Assembly (NCBI GenBank): GCA_903859415.1
Contig: CAIOMN010000107.1
Location: 1 to 39,660 of the forward strand
DNA length: 39,660 nt
Direction of reading: 5' to 3'
Origin: an uncultured Methylococcaceae bacterium
GTDB taxonomy: Bacteria; Pseudomonadota; Gammaproteobacteria; Methylococcales; Methylomonadaceae
Within the stretch, counting starts at the first letter, position 1. Each line of letters begins with the position of its first letter. Made by a program: the position numbers and the translations under genes. The notes under the pieces are model-generated. The model had not been told where the DNA came from. It did no database searches and saw only the letters and a list, made by a program, of their open reading frames with translations. Positions 18,296-39,660 of this stretch are shown here, piece after piece.

Positions 18296-19300
18296 ATGTA
18301 CGTTTTAGGCATAGAAACTTCCTGCGATGAAACAGGTGTCGCCATTTATCATGCAAATAAAGGTTTAATTGCACATAATTTATACAGTCAGGTCGACATG
18401 CACAGCGAATATGGCGGCGTAGTACCAGAACTCGCTTCCCGCGACCATATTCGTAAATTGGTTCCGCTCATCAAACAAACGTTACTCGATAGTCAGCTTA
18501 ATAGCTCGGATATTAATGGCATTGCTTATACGGCAGGCCCTGGGCTTATGGGCGCTCTATTAGTCGGGGCAGCCACCGCCAGAAGTCTGGCATGGGCCTG
18601 GCAGATTCCTGCTATTGCAGTACACCACATGGAAGGCCATTTACTTGCCCCCATGCTTGAAGAAAATCCACCTACATTCCCTTTTATTGCCTTATTAATT
18701 TCGGGCGGCCACACGCAACTCGTCAGGGTTGAAAATATCGGTCACTATGAATTATTAGGTCAGTCACTGGATGATGCGGCGGGTGAGGCTTTTGATAAAA
18801 CCGCCAAAATGCTTGATCTAGGTTATCCAGGAGGCCCTAAATTATCTACACTTGCCGAACAAGGCACTCCGCTAATCAAGTTTCCGCGCCCGATGACCGA
18901 CAGACCTGGTTTGGATTTTAGCTTTAGCGGTTTAAAAACATTCGCGCTTAACACCATTACTGCTTCAGAGAAAACAATACAAGACAAGGCCAATATTGCC
19001 GCCTCCTTTCAAGAAGCCGTTGCTGACACATTGAGCATTAAATGTAAACGGGCATTACAGCAAACAGGATTAAAAAGACTCGTCGTTGCTGGAGGTGTTA
19101 GCGCTAATAAACAGATTCGAACCACTTTAACCGAAATGGCAAACAAGGAACACGTGCAAATTTACTTCCCTCGCCTGGAGTTTTGTACGGATAACGGCGC
19201 AATGATTGCCTATGCTGGATGCCAGCGATTACTGGCCGGAAATCAGCAAAACCTGGAAATCTTTGCTCGTCCACGCTGGCCCATGAATGAGTTAGTTTAA
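18296..19300 (+). CDS. tsaD: tRNA N6-adenosine threonylcarbamoyltransferase TsaD
   Basis: A 334-aa Kae1/YgjD protein that transfers the threonylcarbamoyl group to A37 of tRNAs reading ANN codons. The ASKHA ATPase fold is evident in [18 protein letters not shown] at the N-terminus. The iron-binding motif is [10 protein letters not shown], with ISGGHTQL and [19 protein letters not shown] following, then [14 protein letters not shown] and [12 protein letters not shown] near the C-terminus. It is divergent from rpsU, the arrangement seen in E. coli. Its last five bases, including the stop codon, are also the first bases of a 28-bp repeat bounding the following accessory segment. Confidence 0.97.
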
Positions 19301-19323
19301 GTTTACACCGACCTCGGTTATTT
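19296..19323 (+). repeat. 28-bp repeat, copy 1 (left arm of the inverted pair)
   Basis: TTTAAGTTTACACCGACC followed by TCGGTTATTT. The reverse complement at 20957-20984 matches in 26 of 28 positions, and a more diverged direct copy is at 20398-20424. The first bases overlap the end of tsaD. The arms bracket about 1.6 kb of accessory DNA and could be terminal inverted repeats or REP-like elements. Confidence 0.65.
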
Positions 19324-20397
19324 AAGGCATGCTTATGATTTAGGGATATATAATAAGCCTTGTGTATCTACGACAGCATGAGAATCAGCGCCGGATTATG
19401 CTCAGGTTGTGTGCTTTTATATTCGGAAGATATGCAACACAATCAAAAAATCAACGCTCAATTGCTGATCAGCAACCCTTTTCTGTGAACTCCTTTGAAG
19501 TTATCAATTTAAAACGTGATGCAGACCTTAATGAGCAGTCTGCAATGATTTTTTAGCATCCTGCTACTATTAATATGCATCTAGCAGAAACGATGGATAA
19601 CTGGCACACTCTATAACTCAGCTTGAGCAAGCTTATTTAGCACTAGACAGTCATGGCATGCTGTAAATAATGACTTTTGATCGGTGTAAAAATGGGTTGA
19701 AGTGCTAGCACTTTATGCTGACGCACTGCAAAAGCCCACTGGATGCGTGCAAAAGGATTGCCGAGCGCTAAGAACATACATTGGAGCGCTGGCCCAACCT
19801 GCTAGAGTGCTGGAAAACTATTTTTAAGTGCCAGGTCGTTATAGAAACATATAGCCAGTGATTATCTAGCACTTTGCTAACCTGCTTGAGCGCTTTAAAA
19901 GGTTAGCAAAGCGCTGAAAAAGGAAGGTTACTGGGGTGTTGGGGTTATTGAGGAGCTATAAAGCATCGGCTCAGCGCTCGACAAGGTTGCGCCAGCACTT
20001 GGCTAGCTAATCCTAGCACTGAGATAGGGTGGTTTAAACTTATTTATGATGGCTGATCACTAGCCAGGAGTTGGGGAGCGCTGCTTAACAGTAAAAAATC
20101 AGTTGATTAATTGAATTCAGTGACAACTCAAGTGGCTTATGAATAACTATAGACCTAATTATTCAGACTGCAAGGTAAATAATGAATTTATTCAAAAGCA
20201 CTGTCGTCTAGTGAGCATTTCTTTAATCTTGGCGGTGTTTAAAAAAGACTTATATTCAAGATTAGAGGGGTTATAACACAATCCTGACCTTGTAGATTGG
20301 AAGCTGTAAAACTGGCTCGTATAAAAAATTTGCTAACAAACAATGAATACATTAAGATTTCTAGCAATTGGGGCGTAGGCTTCAAAATAAATTTATA
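19324..20397. other. gene-free accessory interval
   Basis: No convincing gene lies between tsaD and 20468. The longest open frame (19362-19556, 64 codons) has no family resemblance, no good ribosome-binding site and unusual composition, so I do not call it. The middle of the interval is the 21-bp periodic array described separately. The remainder (20083-20397) is AT-rich, with a small imperfect stem (TAATCTTG near 20224 and CAAGATTA near 20256), and shows nothing else. Confidence 0.6.
19639..20082. repeat. phased array of 21-bp units with an AGCGCT/AGCACT/AGTGCT core
   Basis: Thirteen exact hexamers (AGCGCT, AGCACT or its complement AGTGCT) start at 19639, 19701, 19707, 19764, 19785, 19806, 19868, 19889, 19910, 19973, 19994, 20015 and 20077. 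Apart from the extra 19707 copy, spacings are 20-21 bp or multiples of it (62-63). One-mismatch cores fill several gaps (CGCACT at 19722, AGTGCC at 19827, ATCACT at 20056). The region is thus a chain of about 22 units of 21 bp, two turns of B-DNA. The 15 bases after each core are mostly unlike one another. Strong cores come in threes repeated every 104-105 bp. Stops occur in all frames, so it is not coding now. About 0.3 such hexamers would be expected by chance in this length. Confidence 0.85.
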
Positions 20398-20424
20398 TTT
20401 AAGTTTACTCTGACCCGGTTATTG
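20398..20424 (+). repeat. 28-bp repeat, copy 2 (diverged, direct orientation)
   Basis: TTTAAGTTTACTCTGACC followed by CGGTTATTG, related to copy 1 with a few substitutions and one deleted base. It sits directly against GCGTTATATGG, the candidate attC-like half-site upstream of the small membrane-protein gene. Confidence 0.5.
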
Positions 20425-20427
20425 TGC

Positions 20428-20436
20428 GTTATATGG
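20428..20436 (+). other. candidate attC-like 3' half-site (R' arm)
   Basis: GTTATATGG, preceded by CCGGTTATTGTGC, resembles the L'-R' end of an integron attC site (CGG-n-GCGTTRRRY). It is the exact reverse complement of CCATATAAC at 20862-20870, as the R' and R'' arms of one cassette should be when circular. The arm is short, so the call rests on both halves together and on their place around one gene. Confidence 0.4.
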
Positions 20437-20467
20437 TATGTAAACGCCAAATGTTAAGGGGGGAAAA

Positions 20468-20869
20468 ATGAAATTAGTATTTCGTCTGCTGGCGCTTCTA
20501 GTATCTGCAACTTACTACTTCGTATTTTGGCTGCCATTATCATTTGTTCCATTCCTTCAACAAAATATCGGAGGTAGCATCCTCTCTTTACTATGTGCCG
20601 TTGGTGTTGGGTGGTACACTTGGAAAAGTCTCAACAGCATCCCGGATGGTCTCGTTTCAAGCATATTTCTTGGTGCTATAATACTTGGTGCTATCGGCTT
20701 TTGTGCAGGGTTCTTCGGCCCGATTATCTTTACCCCAAGGGCAAATCAAGGGCCATTGCTTGGTATTTTTATAACTGGGCCTCTAGGTTTTGTCTTTGGA
20801 GGAGTGGGCGGCTTTGTTTATTGGCTTTTTAAAGGAAAGAAAATATCACGAAATGAAAAAACCATATAA
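20468..20869 (+). CDS. small four-helix membrane protein, unknown function, possible integron-type cassette gene
   Basis: A 133-aa hydrophobic protein with four predicted membrane segments: residues about 5-28, 36-52, 62-88 and 98-122, ending in a basic tail (KGKKISRNEKTI). Glycines are frequent in the last two segments (ITGPLGFVFGGVGGFVYW). I do not recognise a family. AAGGGGGGAAAA directly before the ATG is a strong ribosome-binding site. The gene is alone, on the plus strand, and is closely framed by the attC-like arms GTTATATGG (32 bases before the start) and CCATATAAC, which includes its stop codon. That layout is what a promoterless gene cassette would have. Confidence 0.65.
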   Translation: MKLVFRLLALLVSATYYFVFWLPLSFVPFLQQNIGGSILSLLCAVGVGWYTWKSLNSIPDGLVSSIFLGAIILGAIGFCAGFFGPIIFTPRANQGPLLGIFITGPLGFVFGGVGGFVYWLFKGKKISRNEKTI

Positions 20870-20888
20870 CAAGCTAATACAGCCGATC
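20862..20888 (+). other. candidate attC-like 5' half-site (R''-L'' arms), interrupted
   Basis: CCATATAAC-AAGCTAAT-ACAGCCGA resembles the start of an attC site, as in the aadA-type GTCTAAC-AATTCGT-TCAAGCCGA. The site is not completed downstream: after about 25 bases the sequence becomes the 3' end of a group II intron on the opposite strand. The missing second half may have been displaced by that insertion or lost. Confidence 0.4.
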
Positions 20889-20953
20889 GGGTCAGAGGAG
20901 GCCGAAGCCTCCGTCTGCCCACAGAACCGTGCGTACGGGTCCGTACACGGCTC
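20886..20953 (-). mobile_element. group II intron remnant, domains V and VI
   Basis: Read on the minus strand, 20953-20924 folds as a group II domain V: GAGCCGTG pairs with CACGGTTC, an upper stem TACG/CGTA carries a GACC loop, and a two-base CG bulge sits on the 3' side. It keeps the AGC catalytic triad in GAGCCG. The following stem (GGGCAGA, GGAGGC-TTCG-GCCTCC, TCTG-A-CCC) looks like domain VI with a bulged adenosine for branch formation, and CCCGAT would be the intron 3' end at about 20886. Domain V is 30 nt, shorter than the usual 34, as in class C introns. No reverse transcriptase gene or 5' part of the intron is present, so this is a fragment. Opposite orientation to the cassette-like gene matches attC-inserted class C introns. 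Confidence 0.65.
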
Positions 20954-20956
20954 CTC

Positions 20957-20984
20957 AAATAACTGGGGTCGGTGTAAACTTAAA
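20957..20984 (-). repeat. 28-bp repeat, copy 3 (right arm of the inverted pair)
   Basis: On the minus strand it reads TTTAAGTTTACACCGACC then CCAGTTATTT, differing from copy 1 at two positions. It starts three bases beyond the domain V remnant. Together with copy 1 it forms an inverted pair 1.6 kb apart. Both ends have TTAA next to GTTTACACC, which could be a target-site duplication or simply part of the arm. Confidence 0.65.
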
Positions 20985-21094
20985 TACAAAATCAGAGCCT
21001 AAAATATTTAATATTTAAAAATCGGATCAGTGCGGCTAGCACAGGCGTTCATGTTATACTCAAAGCTGAGTTTACCTGCAAATAAAAGGCGCAG

Positions 21095-21559
21095 ATGATG
21101 TTTGATGATAAGTTTTTTGATAATTGGTTAGATACTCAAGCACAAAAAGTAATGGAACAAGTGGCGAGTGGCCAAAGCATTTCATCTGATCAAATGATGA
21201 TTTTGATGCTTAAGGCTCAAACTAATCATTTTGCGCATTTAGATATTGATTTGCGTAGTGAGATGCATGCGCTCCGTGAAGACATGGACAAGCGTTTTGA
21301 ACAAATGCAAGTTGAAACGGTTAAACGTTTTGAGCAAGTAGACAAACGCTTTGAACAAATGCAAATTGAAACGGTTAAGCGTTTTGAACAAGTAGACAAG
21401 CGCTTTGAACAAATGCAAGTTGAAGCGGTTAAACGTTTTGAGCAAGTAGATAAACGCTTTGATCAACTGACCTCACGTATGGATCATTTTATGATTTGGT
21501 CATTCGCGACTACACTAACCGTTGGTGGCATCGTCATCGCCGCTATTAAGTTTCTGTAA
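21095..21559 (+). CDS. membrane-anchored coiled-coil protein with 18-residue repeats (Bdr/DUF1640-like)
   Basis: A 154-aa protein of three parts: an N-terminal region (residues 1-64), a charged coiled coil made of an 18-residue repeat (DKRFEQMQVETVKRFEQV), and a C-terminal membrane helix (MIWSFATTLTVGGIVIAAIKFL, split 131-152). Three full repeats start at residues 65, 83 and 101, then a partial one at 119. The layout resembles Borrelia Bdr and the bacterial DUF1640 coiled-coil proteins, whose function is not defined. Start ATG at 21095; a second ATG at 21098 follows. No close partner: it lies just outside the inverted-repeat segment and ends 115 bp from the convergent plsY. Confidence 0.75.
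   Translation: MMFDDKFFDNWLDTQAQKVMEQVASGQSISSDQMMILMLKAQTNHFAHLDIDLRSEMHALREDMDKRFEQMQVETVKRFEQVDKRFEQMQIETVKRFEQVDKRFEQMQVEAVKRFEQVDKRFDQLTSRMDHFMIWSFATTLTVGGIVIAAIKFL
21287..21448 (+). repeat. three tandem 54-bp repeats inside the coiled-coil gene
   Basis: Units begin at 21287, 21341 and 21395, with a partial fourth at 21449. They differ only at scattered bases, so repeat number could vary by slippage while preserving the reading frame (54 = 18 codons). Confidence 0.9.
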
Positions 21560-21673
21560 GGACTTAACAATTGCTGGGGGCAGAACAAAGTTATATTCAA
21601 ATGTAGTACCTCTGCCCAAATTAAACACCCAGCCATTGAAAAATATAAACAGCATTCCATGACACCAAAGCGC

Positions 21674-22243
21674 CTATTCTTCGCCCTTAATCAAACGCTG
21701 AATATTGCTTTTATGGCGCCACAGCAATAACACCATCATAAAGACAGAAGCACCCACTATCCAAATATCGCCCAAAATAAACCAGGCGTAAATGGGCGAC
21801 AGCACTGACGCACACAAAGCAGAAAGTGACGAAATCTTGCCTAACTTATAGATCAATAACCAGGTGCCCACAAAGGCCCCACCCAACGCCCAAGAGAATC
21901 CGAGCAAGACCCCAATAGAAGTAGCAACCCCTTTACCGCCTTCAAACTTAAAGAATATGGGGTATAAATGCCCCATAAATGCCGCTATTCCGGTAAGCAC
22001 TAACAACTCGACAGGCACGCCCACAACTTTTGCCACATAAACCGGCAATAAACCTTTCAGCAAATCTCCAAATAAAGTAATAGCTGCTGCTTTTTTGCCG
22101 CCAATTCGCATCACATTCGTTGCCCCAGGATTACCTGAACCCTGCTCCCTGGGATCAGGCAAACCCATTAACCGGCAAATAATAATTGCACTAGAAATTG
22201 ATCCTATCAGATAGGCAGCGGGAACAAACAACCATTCAATCAT
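21674..22243 (-). CDS. plsY: acyl-phosphate:glycerol-3-phosphate acyltransferase PlsY
   Basis: A 189-aa inner-membrane enzyme that acylates glycerol-3-phosphate from acyl-phosphate, the first step of phospholipid synthesis. Conserved loops are YLIGSISSAIIICR, GSGNPGATNVMR and FKFEGGKGVATSIGVLLG, the three PlsY motifs, between five or so membrane segments. It is divergent from folB with 92 bp between, the same neighbourhood as in many gammaproteobacteria. Confidence 0.95.
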   Translation of the reverse strand: MIEWLFVPAAYLIGSISSAIIICRLMGLPDPREQGSGNPGATNVMRIGGKKAAAITLFGDLLKGLLPVYVAKVVGVPVELLVLTGIAAFMGHLYPIFFKFEGGKGVATSIGVLLGFSWALGGAFVGTWLLIYKLGKISSLSALCASVLSPIYAWFILGDIWIVGASVFMMVLLLWRHKSNIQRLIKGEE

Positions 22244-39488: not shown

Positions 39489-39540
39489 GATCAACCAACT
39501 GAAACTTTGACGCGCTAAAATCTTATTTGAAAAACTACTA

Positions 39541-39660
39541 ACTGTAACAATCACTATTGATAACGTAACGTATGCAATTAGAAACGTAACGATCACTATT
39601 AATAACGTAACGAAAGCAGTTAGAAACGTAACGATCACTATTAATAACGTAACGAAAGCA
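39541..39660. repeat. 21-bp array with AACGTAACG core, alternating in 42-bp pairs, runs off the right edge
   Basis: The nine-base core AACGTAACG starts at 39562, 39583, 39604, 39625 and 39646, exactly 21 bp apart, with a degenerate copy near 39541. The 12-base partners alternate between ATCACTATTAAT and AAAGCAGTTAGA (first pair slightly diverged), making a 42-bp super-unit. Read on the plus strand it encodes heptads NVTITIN and NVTKAVR with no stop, from 39511 to the window end; on the minus strand hydrophobic heptads. Whether it is coding cannot be decided from the visible part. Confidence 0.88.

Follow-up and report, generated by a model that had tools for sequence, protein, structure and literature searches.

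The locus considered here raises the question of what a strictly phased row of short palindromic motifs is for, and where it came from, when no gene seems to belong to it. It lies on contig CAIOMN010000107.1 of an uncultured Methylococcaceae bacterium (assembly GCA_903859415.1), which was analysed over its full 39,660 nucleotides and is called the window in the following; it is contig 107 (C107) of the 280 contigs of its genome (G000). The array in the window is a drifting copy, without the gene, of an element that has two parts: a gene for a protein of approximately 230 amino acids and a lattice of sites upstream of that gene. The lattice is a row of some 25–28 dyad-symmetric DNA sites, two helical turns apart, that covers approximately 550 bp. 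We tentatively propose, with slightly less than even confidence, that the lattice serves a subfamily-specific binding factor, probably the product of the adjacent gene, which would regulate its own expression.

The array in the window

An earlier note on this DNA described a phased array of AGCGCT/AGCACT-type cores, and the array is real. Its 13 AG[CT][AG]CT cores begin at 19639, 19701, 19707, 19764, 19785, 19806, 19868, 19889, 19910, 19973, 19994, 20015 and 20077, and the same number in 19600–20100 compares with a mean of 1.2 and a maximum of 6 in 2,000 dinucleotide shuffles. Among the core pairs separated by 16–220 bp, 49 of 56 are in 21-bp phase (0 or −1 modulo 21), whereas random placement gives about 10%; the observed share was reached in none of 20,000 random placements. 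Lag 21 is also the strongest of lags 5–129 in 19600–20090. The core triplets indeed recur, after 104 and 105 bp, as had been claimed. The 21-bp spacing holds for the overall phase but not for every interval, since three of them (19639–19701, 19827–19868 and 20015–20077) fall short of a multiple of 21 by one base. When the window was scanned in 420-bp pieces, the family models described below exceeded 12 nats at one place only, and their limits show the span given earlier, 19639–20082, to be too narrow. The AGCGCT core itself is the junction of two units of subfamily A, written here as AGC/GCT. The two features are as follows:

19639–20082, no strand: 13 AG[CT][AG]CT cores, each the junction AGC/GCT between successive palindromic units
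19498–20105, no strand, the unit being palindromic: array of subfamily A, its dyad-symmetric units 21 bp (sometimes 20 bp) long, with limits set by the A family model

Period, symmetry and palindromes upstream of the gene family

Homologous arrays are present elsewhere in the same genome on C187 (86% identity), C58 (72%) and C154 (71%, part of the array), and a further one on C10 was detected by pattern and model. In C58 and C154, as well as in several copies from genomes G017, G012 and G033, the array is directly upstream of a stand-alone gene of about 230 codons. The C58 copy was matched by blast in seven of 61 genomes, its own included, with nine matches in G017, and the kin found by the genome scan are methanotrophs of the Methylococcaceae/Methylobacter type. 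The gene family is more widespread, being found in 31 of the 61 (the window's own among them), where a single genome has as many as 16 matches, and among 398 genomes of the phylum it was detected at E ≤ 1e-6 in the window's own genome only. A scan of genome contigs left 80 family loci, mostly from Methylococcales and additionally from Gallionella, Nitrosomonadales, Zoogloea, Thiodictyon, Verrucomicrobia and Deminuibacter. The subfamily labels A–D were assigned to them manually, on the basis of protein identity and the best query, D being a taxonomic rest group and not a protein clade.

Sixty-four upstream regions were available, i.e., the 80 loci without 12 that have too little upstream sequence and four partial matches with no placeable start (Nitrosomonadales are among these 16), and they were taken without thinning for relatedness. 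Of 62 lags, lag 21 ranked third or better in 56 of these regions and first in 35; they come from Methylococcales, Gallionella, Zoogloea, Thiodictyon, Verrucomicrobia and Deminuibacter. The controls gave 10/54 downstream, 8/54 far upstream and 14/64 inside the gene. These values exceed chance, probably through the many controls that lie in genes, 21 being divisible by three. The periodic signal spans about −60 to −650 from the start codon, and beyond this it is at the far-upstream level (40 loci).

The mean autocorrelation of 84 upstream regions without near-duplicates peaks at 21, 42, 63, 84 and 105, with shoulders one base less (62, 83, 104, 125 and 146) and none one base more. From the 83/84 and 104/105 ratios, 20-bp units are estimated at about 5–7% and the mean unit at about 20.94 bp, or 10.47 bp per turn, which is the pitch of B-DNA. 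The preference for 20-base over 22-base steps is a statistical rule taken from the averaged autocorrelation, which was trusted over models of individual arrays because those models also slip in degenerate stretches. With up to 16 arrays for each of subfamilies A, B and C, period 21 gained 865, 606 and 429 nats, respectively, compared with at most 241, 88 and 110 nats for periods 17, 18, 19, 20, 22, 23 and 25. The upstream region of locus L070, from the one-contig genome G019, carries a tandem 104-bp super-repeat made up of one unit of 20 bp and four of 21 bp; the window array has this higher order too.

The unit is dyad-symmetric at P < 0.05 in 50 of 68 arrays (16 weak arrays of the 84 were dropped), in a test whose column-permutation null with choice of the best axis may somewhat favour symmetry. 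Separate support for the dyad comes from joint subfamily models trained without any assumption of symmetry, which have symmetry shares of 0.93, 0.84, 0.83 and 0.61, compared with 0.23–0.32 for shuffles. Shuffled arrays gained just 45–52 nats of log-likelihood in such models, while the real ones gave the following palindromes:

Subfamily A, 36 arrays: GCTcaTCAA.c.TtGC.aAGC (gain 1723 nats; six of six starts agree)
Subfamily B, 18 arrays: ggttatCaTa.CAtGAtAAGC (gain 620 nats; five of six starts agree)
Subfamily C, 17 arrays: ..TACTaA.AGT.TtAGt... (gain 472 nats; runs 469–472)
Other phyla (rest group), 13 arrays:.cctcGCAACg.TTgcGcaA. (gain 421 nats; runs 336–421)

The filler had earlier been thought to vary freely. 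Its centre bears a second dyad instead, the average being AGC/GCT-N3-CAA-N3-TTG-N3 over the 55 arrays that remained when 29 weak ones were dropped; the same 55 were used for the stop-codon, pairing and G-U analyses below.

Palindrome and gene subfamily go together. Leave-one-out assignment was correct in 62 of 67 scorable arrays (17 of the 84 were unscorable), and when every blastn-alignable array was kept out of training it was still correct in 56 of 62 (22 of 84 unscorable), so that the match is more than a by-product of alignable copies. Within a single genome, G016, arrays of type A (L146), B (L108 and L111) and C (L112) each follow the subfamily of their own gene. These results bear on the fast-evolving minisatellite that had been offered as an alternative, that is, a repeat grown by tandem duplication which inherited its palindromic unit and its period by chance. 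Near-identical successive units or super-repeats in some arrays (G019 copies L070 and L094) speak for such an origin. The same period across phyla, the averaged slips to 20 and not to 22 bases, and the recovery of the subfamily palindromes from non-alignable arrays speak against it, and we disfavour it as scarcely probable. The claim that the pattern is not the decay of a simple tandem repeat is supported, the array being phased helically at the level of DNA and built of near-palindromic sites.

A decayed protein-coding heptad repeat, which the earlier note had kept in view as a counter-reading, is rejected as well. Stop codons occur at about the expected frequency in all six frames of the 55 arrays, and the 20-bp units break the reading frame, which argues against a coding repeat. 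The longest stop-free run has a median of 82 out of 180 amino acids, compared with 72.5 in shuffled sequence, and 5 of the 84 arrays reach 150. Methylation of AGCGCT, suggested earlier, is unlikely as a common purpose because the other subfamilies use palindromes without that hexamer. A clustered regularly interspaced short palindromic repeat (CRISPR) array was considered and rejected: the units mostly carry a few bits of consensus, which the filler shares, and no second gene recurs within 3 kb.

Transcription of the array into a functional RNA, e.g., a repeat RNA with the downstream protein as its partner, as in type III toxin-antitoxin systems, is suggested by the layout of short repeats before one gene. 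It is also suggested by folding, as the window array (z −2.8 against 100 shuffles) and the C58 array (z −4.7 against 20 shuffles) fold below their shuffles, and by a small Watson-Crick excess within units (ratio 1.05, z 5.1), with A-C mismatches (0.95) slightly rarer than G-U pairs (0.98). However, palindromes alone cause low folding energies, and the excess of pairing within units is small (48.8% compared with 47.3% from the consensus, z 4.9). G-U pairs show no excess, which is what independent reading of the half-sites on DNA would give. Moreover, the spacing fits the pitch of B-DNA, the family members searched in Pfam, NCBIfam and PADLOC match no toxin family and the array stretches of three loci have no match in Rfam. 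We regard an RNA role as quite unlikely.

Gene-less copies and the tsaD locus

Four gene-less copies elsewhere (C187, G017:C143, G017:C145 and the copy at the tsaD locus of G017) are 85–88% identical to the window copy over 690–910 bp and have similar right ends. C187 and G017:C143 share a 1.9-kb block at 95% identity, with different genes on its left. A search of 18 further intergenic loci of the genus with A-type arrays (one place being counted twice) found the gene at none of them, although contigs L024, L033 and L034 end near the array, so that a gene may lie past the edge. The A-type arrays adjoin housekeeping genes such as clpX. By our reading of the open reading frames (ORFs), genes resembling toxin-antitoxin genes are present beside 7 of 16 such arrays (L018 3305–3951, L005 3714–4333, L105 9161–9903, L035 2088–2626, L024 606–1241, L120 3608–3877 and L046 908–1382); the kinds seen are VapBC-like, nucleotidyltransferase/HEPN-like, RelE-like, ribbon-helix-helix (RHH) antitoxin-like and BrnTA-like.

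In the window, the array is next to tsaD. Sister genomes lack the sequence that separates tsaD from the following conserved segment, or have other sequence in its place: of 19 tsaD loci compared, 17 continue after tsaD with the segment from about 21675, which comes within 121 bp in 15 of them and after 461 and 528 bp in the remaining two. G017 has an array at the same place, likewise without the gene. Homology to the gene-bearing C58 starts at about 19491, corresponding to the point 12 bp upstream of the C58 start codon, and by this homology the lost gene of the window copy would have read leftwards, on the minus strand. No remnant of the gene was found near the window array at E ≤ 0.01. The features of the surroundings are:

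19294–21674, no strand: stretch from tsaD to the next conserved segment, absent or replaced in sister genomes (comparison of tsaD loci)
19491–19575, no strand: leader remnant, by homology to the gene-bearing C58
19520–19554, plus strand: hairpin TGCAGAC(11)GTCTGCA with a run of six T no more than a few bases behind it, resembling a terminator by its letters
20106–20275, no strand: conserved gene-distal flank (eight-copy comparison)

In gene-bearing copies, sequence related to that of the terminator-like hairpin separates the gene start from the strong cores. The mean pairwise identity of the eight copies is 0.80 in 20098–20259, compared with 0.78 in the core and 0.74 in the filler, and homology among the gene-less copies stops at 20268–20275. 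A 23-base repeat at the right end was considered as a recombination site and rejected, there being just three occurrences in the genome.

Dispersal of this kind could mean that the array forms the part of a transposon-like element that is passed on, with the gene as passenger or helper and the gene-less copies as non-autonomous derivatives. The similar gene-less copies, the absence of the tsaD-adjacent stretch in sister genomes and the many intergenic places, 7 of 16 by toxin-antitoxin-like genes, are in its favour. On the other hand, the family contains no transposase-like protein, no clear target duplication or terminal repeat was seen, no relative of the protein was found on plasmids (72,556 records), phages or viral contigs, and transposon ends bearing 25 phased sites are not known to us. 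A mobile repeat is considered rather improbable.

The earlier note expected the cores to be conserved above the filler. This was not borne out for the window copy: compared with its G017 ortholog, also gene-less, 112/132 core and 277/308 filler positions are identical, so that nothing appears to protect the cores in it. Other gene-less pairs behave alike (C187/G017:C143, core 121/132 and filler 280/308; C107/C187, core 115/132 and filler 271/308). Across relatives, the expectation held for the gene-bearing pair C58/G017:C258, with 110/132 core compared with 209/308 filler positions (Fisher P = 0.0007), and not for the gene-less pairs. The further gene-bearing pairs lean in the same direction, though less strongly, with 89/120 core and 177/280 filler positions (C58/G017:C256, P = 0.04) and 88/120 and 190/280 (G017:C258/G017:C256, P = 0.29). 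In this small sample the identities are suggestive of core protection in gene-bearing but not in gene-less copies. As to the proposed binding platform, the phased near-palindromic DNA sites stand, while the preference of conservation for core over filler does not hold in the window copy.

Some further observations concern the vicinity. To the left of the array, at the place of the lost gene, there is an open frame of 37 codons (19379–19489) with related sequence in G017:C222; it is probably due to chance. About 800 bp to the right, a group II intron domain V (Rfam RF00029) is present on the minus strand at 20886–20955, with 47.1 bits compared with a gathering score of 40. An ORF at 21095–21559 contains a 54-bp tandem repeat (21287–21466) that codes for a KRFEQVD-like coiled-coil repeat. 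Matches to the AGCRCT/21-bp pattern in G023, G029, G040, G047 and G000:C174 are, as we read the letters, coding repeats of the KRFEQVD type unrelated to the arrays, and were discarded. Finally, a tandem repeat of 42 bp at 39539–39660, which has a sub-period of 21 bp and is cut by the contig edge, is below the threshold of the family models.

The candidate binder and related systems

A period at the pitch of B-DNA, dyads, a place before the gene and letters that follow the subfamily together point to a dimeric DNA-binding factor of matching specificity. Most economically, this would be the product of the adjacent gene, the only recurrent candidate, although neither its charge nor its fold recommends it. 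With a simple ORF caller and flanks of 3 kb, other neighbouring genes recur in at most 9 of the 80 loci, whereas the family itself does so in 71. No convincing signal of a sigma-70 promoter was seen between array and gene. Searches of Pfam with three members of subfamily A, and of NCBIfam and PADLOC with three divergent members each, gave no match to the protein at E ≤ 1; the best hit in PHROGs, with E 0.37, is worthless, and PDB sequences gave no meaningful match. AlphaFold predicts helices within residues 10–124 and a beta-sandwich from about 134 to 228, at a mean predicted local distance difference test (pLDDT) score of 86.8. In the predicted structure, the C-terminal beta-sandwich has the FN3 fold (VIA Z 10.9, root-mean-square deviation (rmsd) 2.5, 90 aligned). 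The helical N-terminal domain predicted alone reached a pLDDT of 91.5 and a predicted template modelling score (pTM) of 0.81. Its best PDB match by VIA is unconvincing (Z 4.5, rmsd 4.5, 81 aligned), which is no proof of a new fold, and Foldseek returned nothing at E ≤ 0.001 from PDB or BFVD.

A different regulator or nucleoid protein, acting in trans and specific to the subfamily, may instead bind the array, with the 230-residue protein as regulated cargo. The acidic protein without a recognised DNA-binding fold and the dispersed gene-less arrays favour such a factor. So does the averaged dyad CAA-N3-TTG, whose pyrimidine-purine (Y-R) steps recall those of Fis sites; the contacts of Fis extend over 21 bp (PMC4784862). 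Unlike in Fis sites, however, the conserved G at ±7 is depleted in the 55 arrays (G at −7, z −3.1; C at +7, z −2.3), and the other subfamilies use other palindromes. Furthermore, the different palindromes within one genome follow the subfamily of the neighbouring gene, which would require several co-inherited regulators, and no second gene recurs beside the arrays. A separate regulator is judged unlikely, though it is the next most probable reading.

Under the preferred reading, in which the adjacent gene's product binds the lattice, a dimeric subfamily-specific factor would occupy the units in succession along a single face of the DNA, and the bound factors would form a cooperative nucleoprotein segment. 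The most likely role of this segment would be the control of its own gene, and the factor may also mark or organise dispersed copies. New units would arise by tandem duplication; selection would keep phase and palindrome as long as the gene is present, and after gene loss the array would drift, as in the window.

Several results weigh against this reading. Lag 21 was outside the top three in 8 of the 64 upstream regions, 18 of 68 arrays have no significant dyad, and 17–22 of the 84 arrays were unclassifiable. The model of the other phyla did not converge, its six runs ranging from 336 to 421 nats. In free models of individual arrays, insertions and deletions are about equally frequent (477 and 541 expected), and some arrays were segmented with 22-base units, contrary to a rule of 20 and not 22. 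The core test in gene-bearing copies is made up of few pairs that share sequences. The protein is acidic in 17 of 17 members (isoelectric point 5.2–6.3), with the N-terminal 130 residues alone being basic in three of 17, and the searches linked neither of its domains to a known DNA-binding fold. In addition, A-type arrays also occur without a detectable family gene. We nevertheless rank the autoregulating nucleoprotein segment first, short of even confidence as it is, followed by a separate regulator, a mobile repeat and an RNA partner, in this order.

Neither the array nor the gene has a family model, and the titles and abstract openings of the open-licence literature gave nothing that describes them. 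It is possible, although we lean to doubting it, that the arrays represent an undescribed self-recognising DNA lattice, in which paralogs in one genome each coat their own palindrome lattice of about 550 bp, and sometimes gene-less ones, specificity and site having co-diversified several times. If this were true, a protein family composed of an unclassified helical domain and FN3 would be matched to palindromes spaced at the pitch of B-DNA. A gene family without a family model is tied here to cis lattices whose letters differ by subfamily while pitch and symmetry are fixed, and the prediction is a nucleoprotein segment of about 25 sites, far above ordinary operators. The arrays and genes provide a ready comparative data set on the evolution of a protein-DNA code, and a class of unexplained intergenic DNA of methanotrophs becomes testable, subfamily by subfamily.

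Among known systems, the arrays may be said to work like an operator, iteron or centromere lattice, yet they fail those defining features that were checked. Plasmid iterons, which adjoin a Rep gene, are direct repeats, few in number, that measure about two helical turns and face the same side of the DNA. The arrays share with them the in-phase repeats of about two turns beside the gene of a dedicated, here putative, binder, but they are chromosomal and multi-copy, consist of palindromic units and come with a protein that matches no Rep family in Pfam or NCBIfam and has no relative among the plasmid records. In parC/ParR centromeres, e.g., of pSK41, 20-bp repeats upstream of the gene for the array-binding protein form a nucleoprotein superstructure. 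Similarly, units of about 20 bp here precede the gene of a putative array binder, but no RHH family was matched in Pfam or NCBIfam, and neither a ParM-type motor nor any other partner gene recurs in the 80 loci. Type III toxin-antitoxin loci (toxIN) also have tandem repeats upstream of one protein gene, and in both cases the type of repeat is specific to the protein family; the present units, however, are symmetric DNA palindromes with a weak RNA signature, and the members searched in NCBIfam, PADLOC and Pfam have no match to ToxN, CptN or TenpN at E ≤ 1. Repetitive extragenic palindromic (REP) sequences with their RAYT genes are palindromes tied to the subfamily of the neighbouring gene and also dispersed without it. 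Although the ~230-residue protein has no (Y1) transposase match in Pfam or NCBIfam, and long phased arrays take the place of single or paired REPs, subfamily-specific palindromes and gene-less dispersed copies are common to both.
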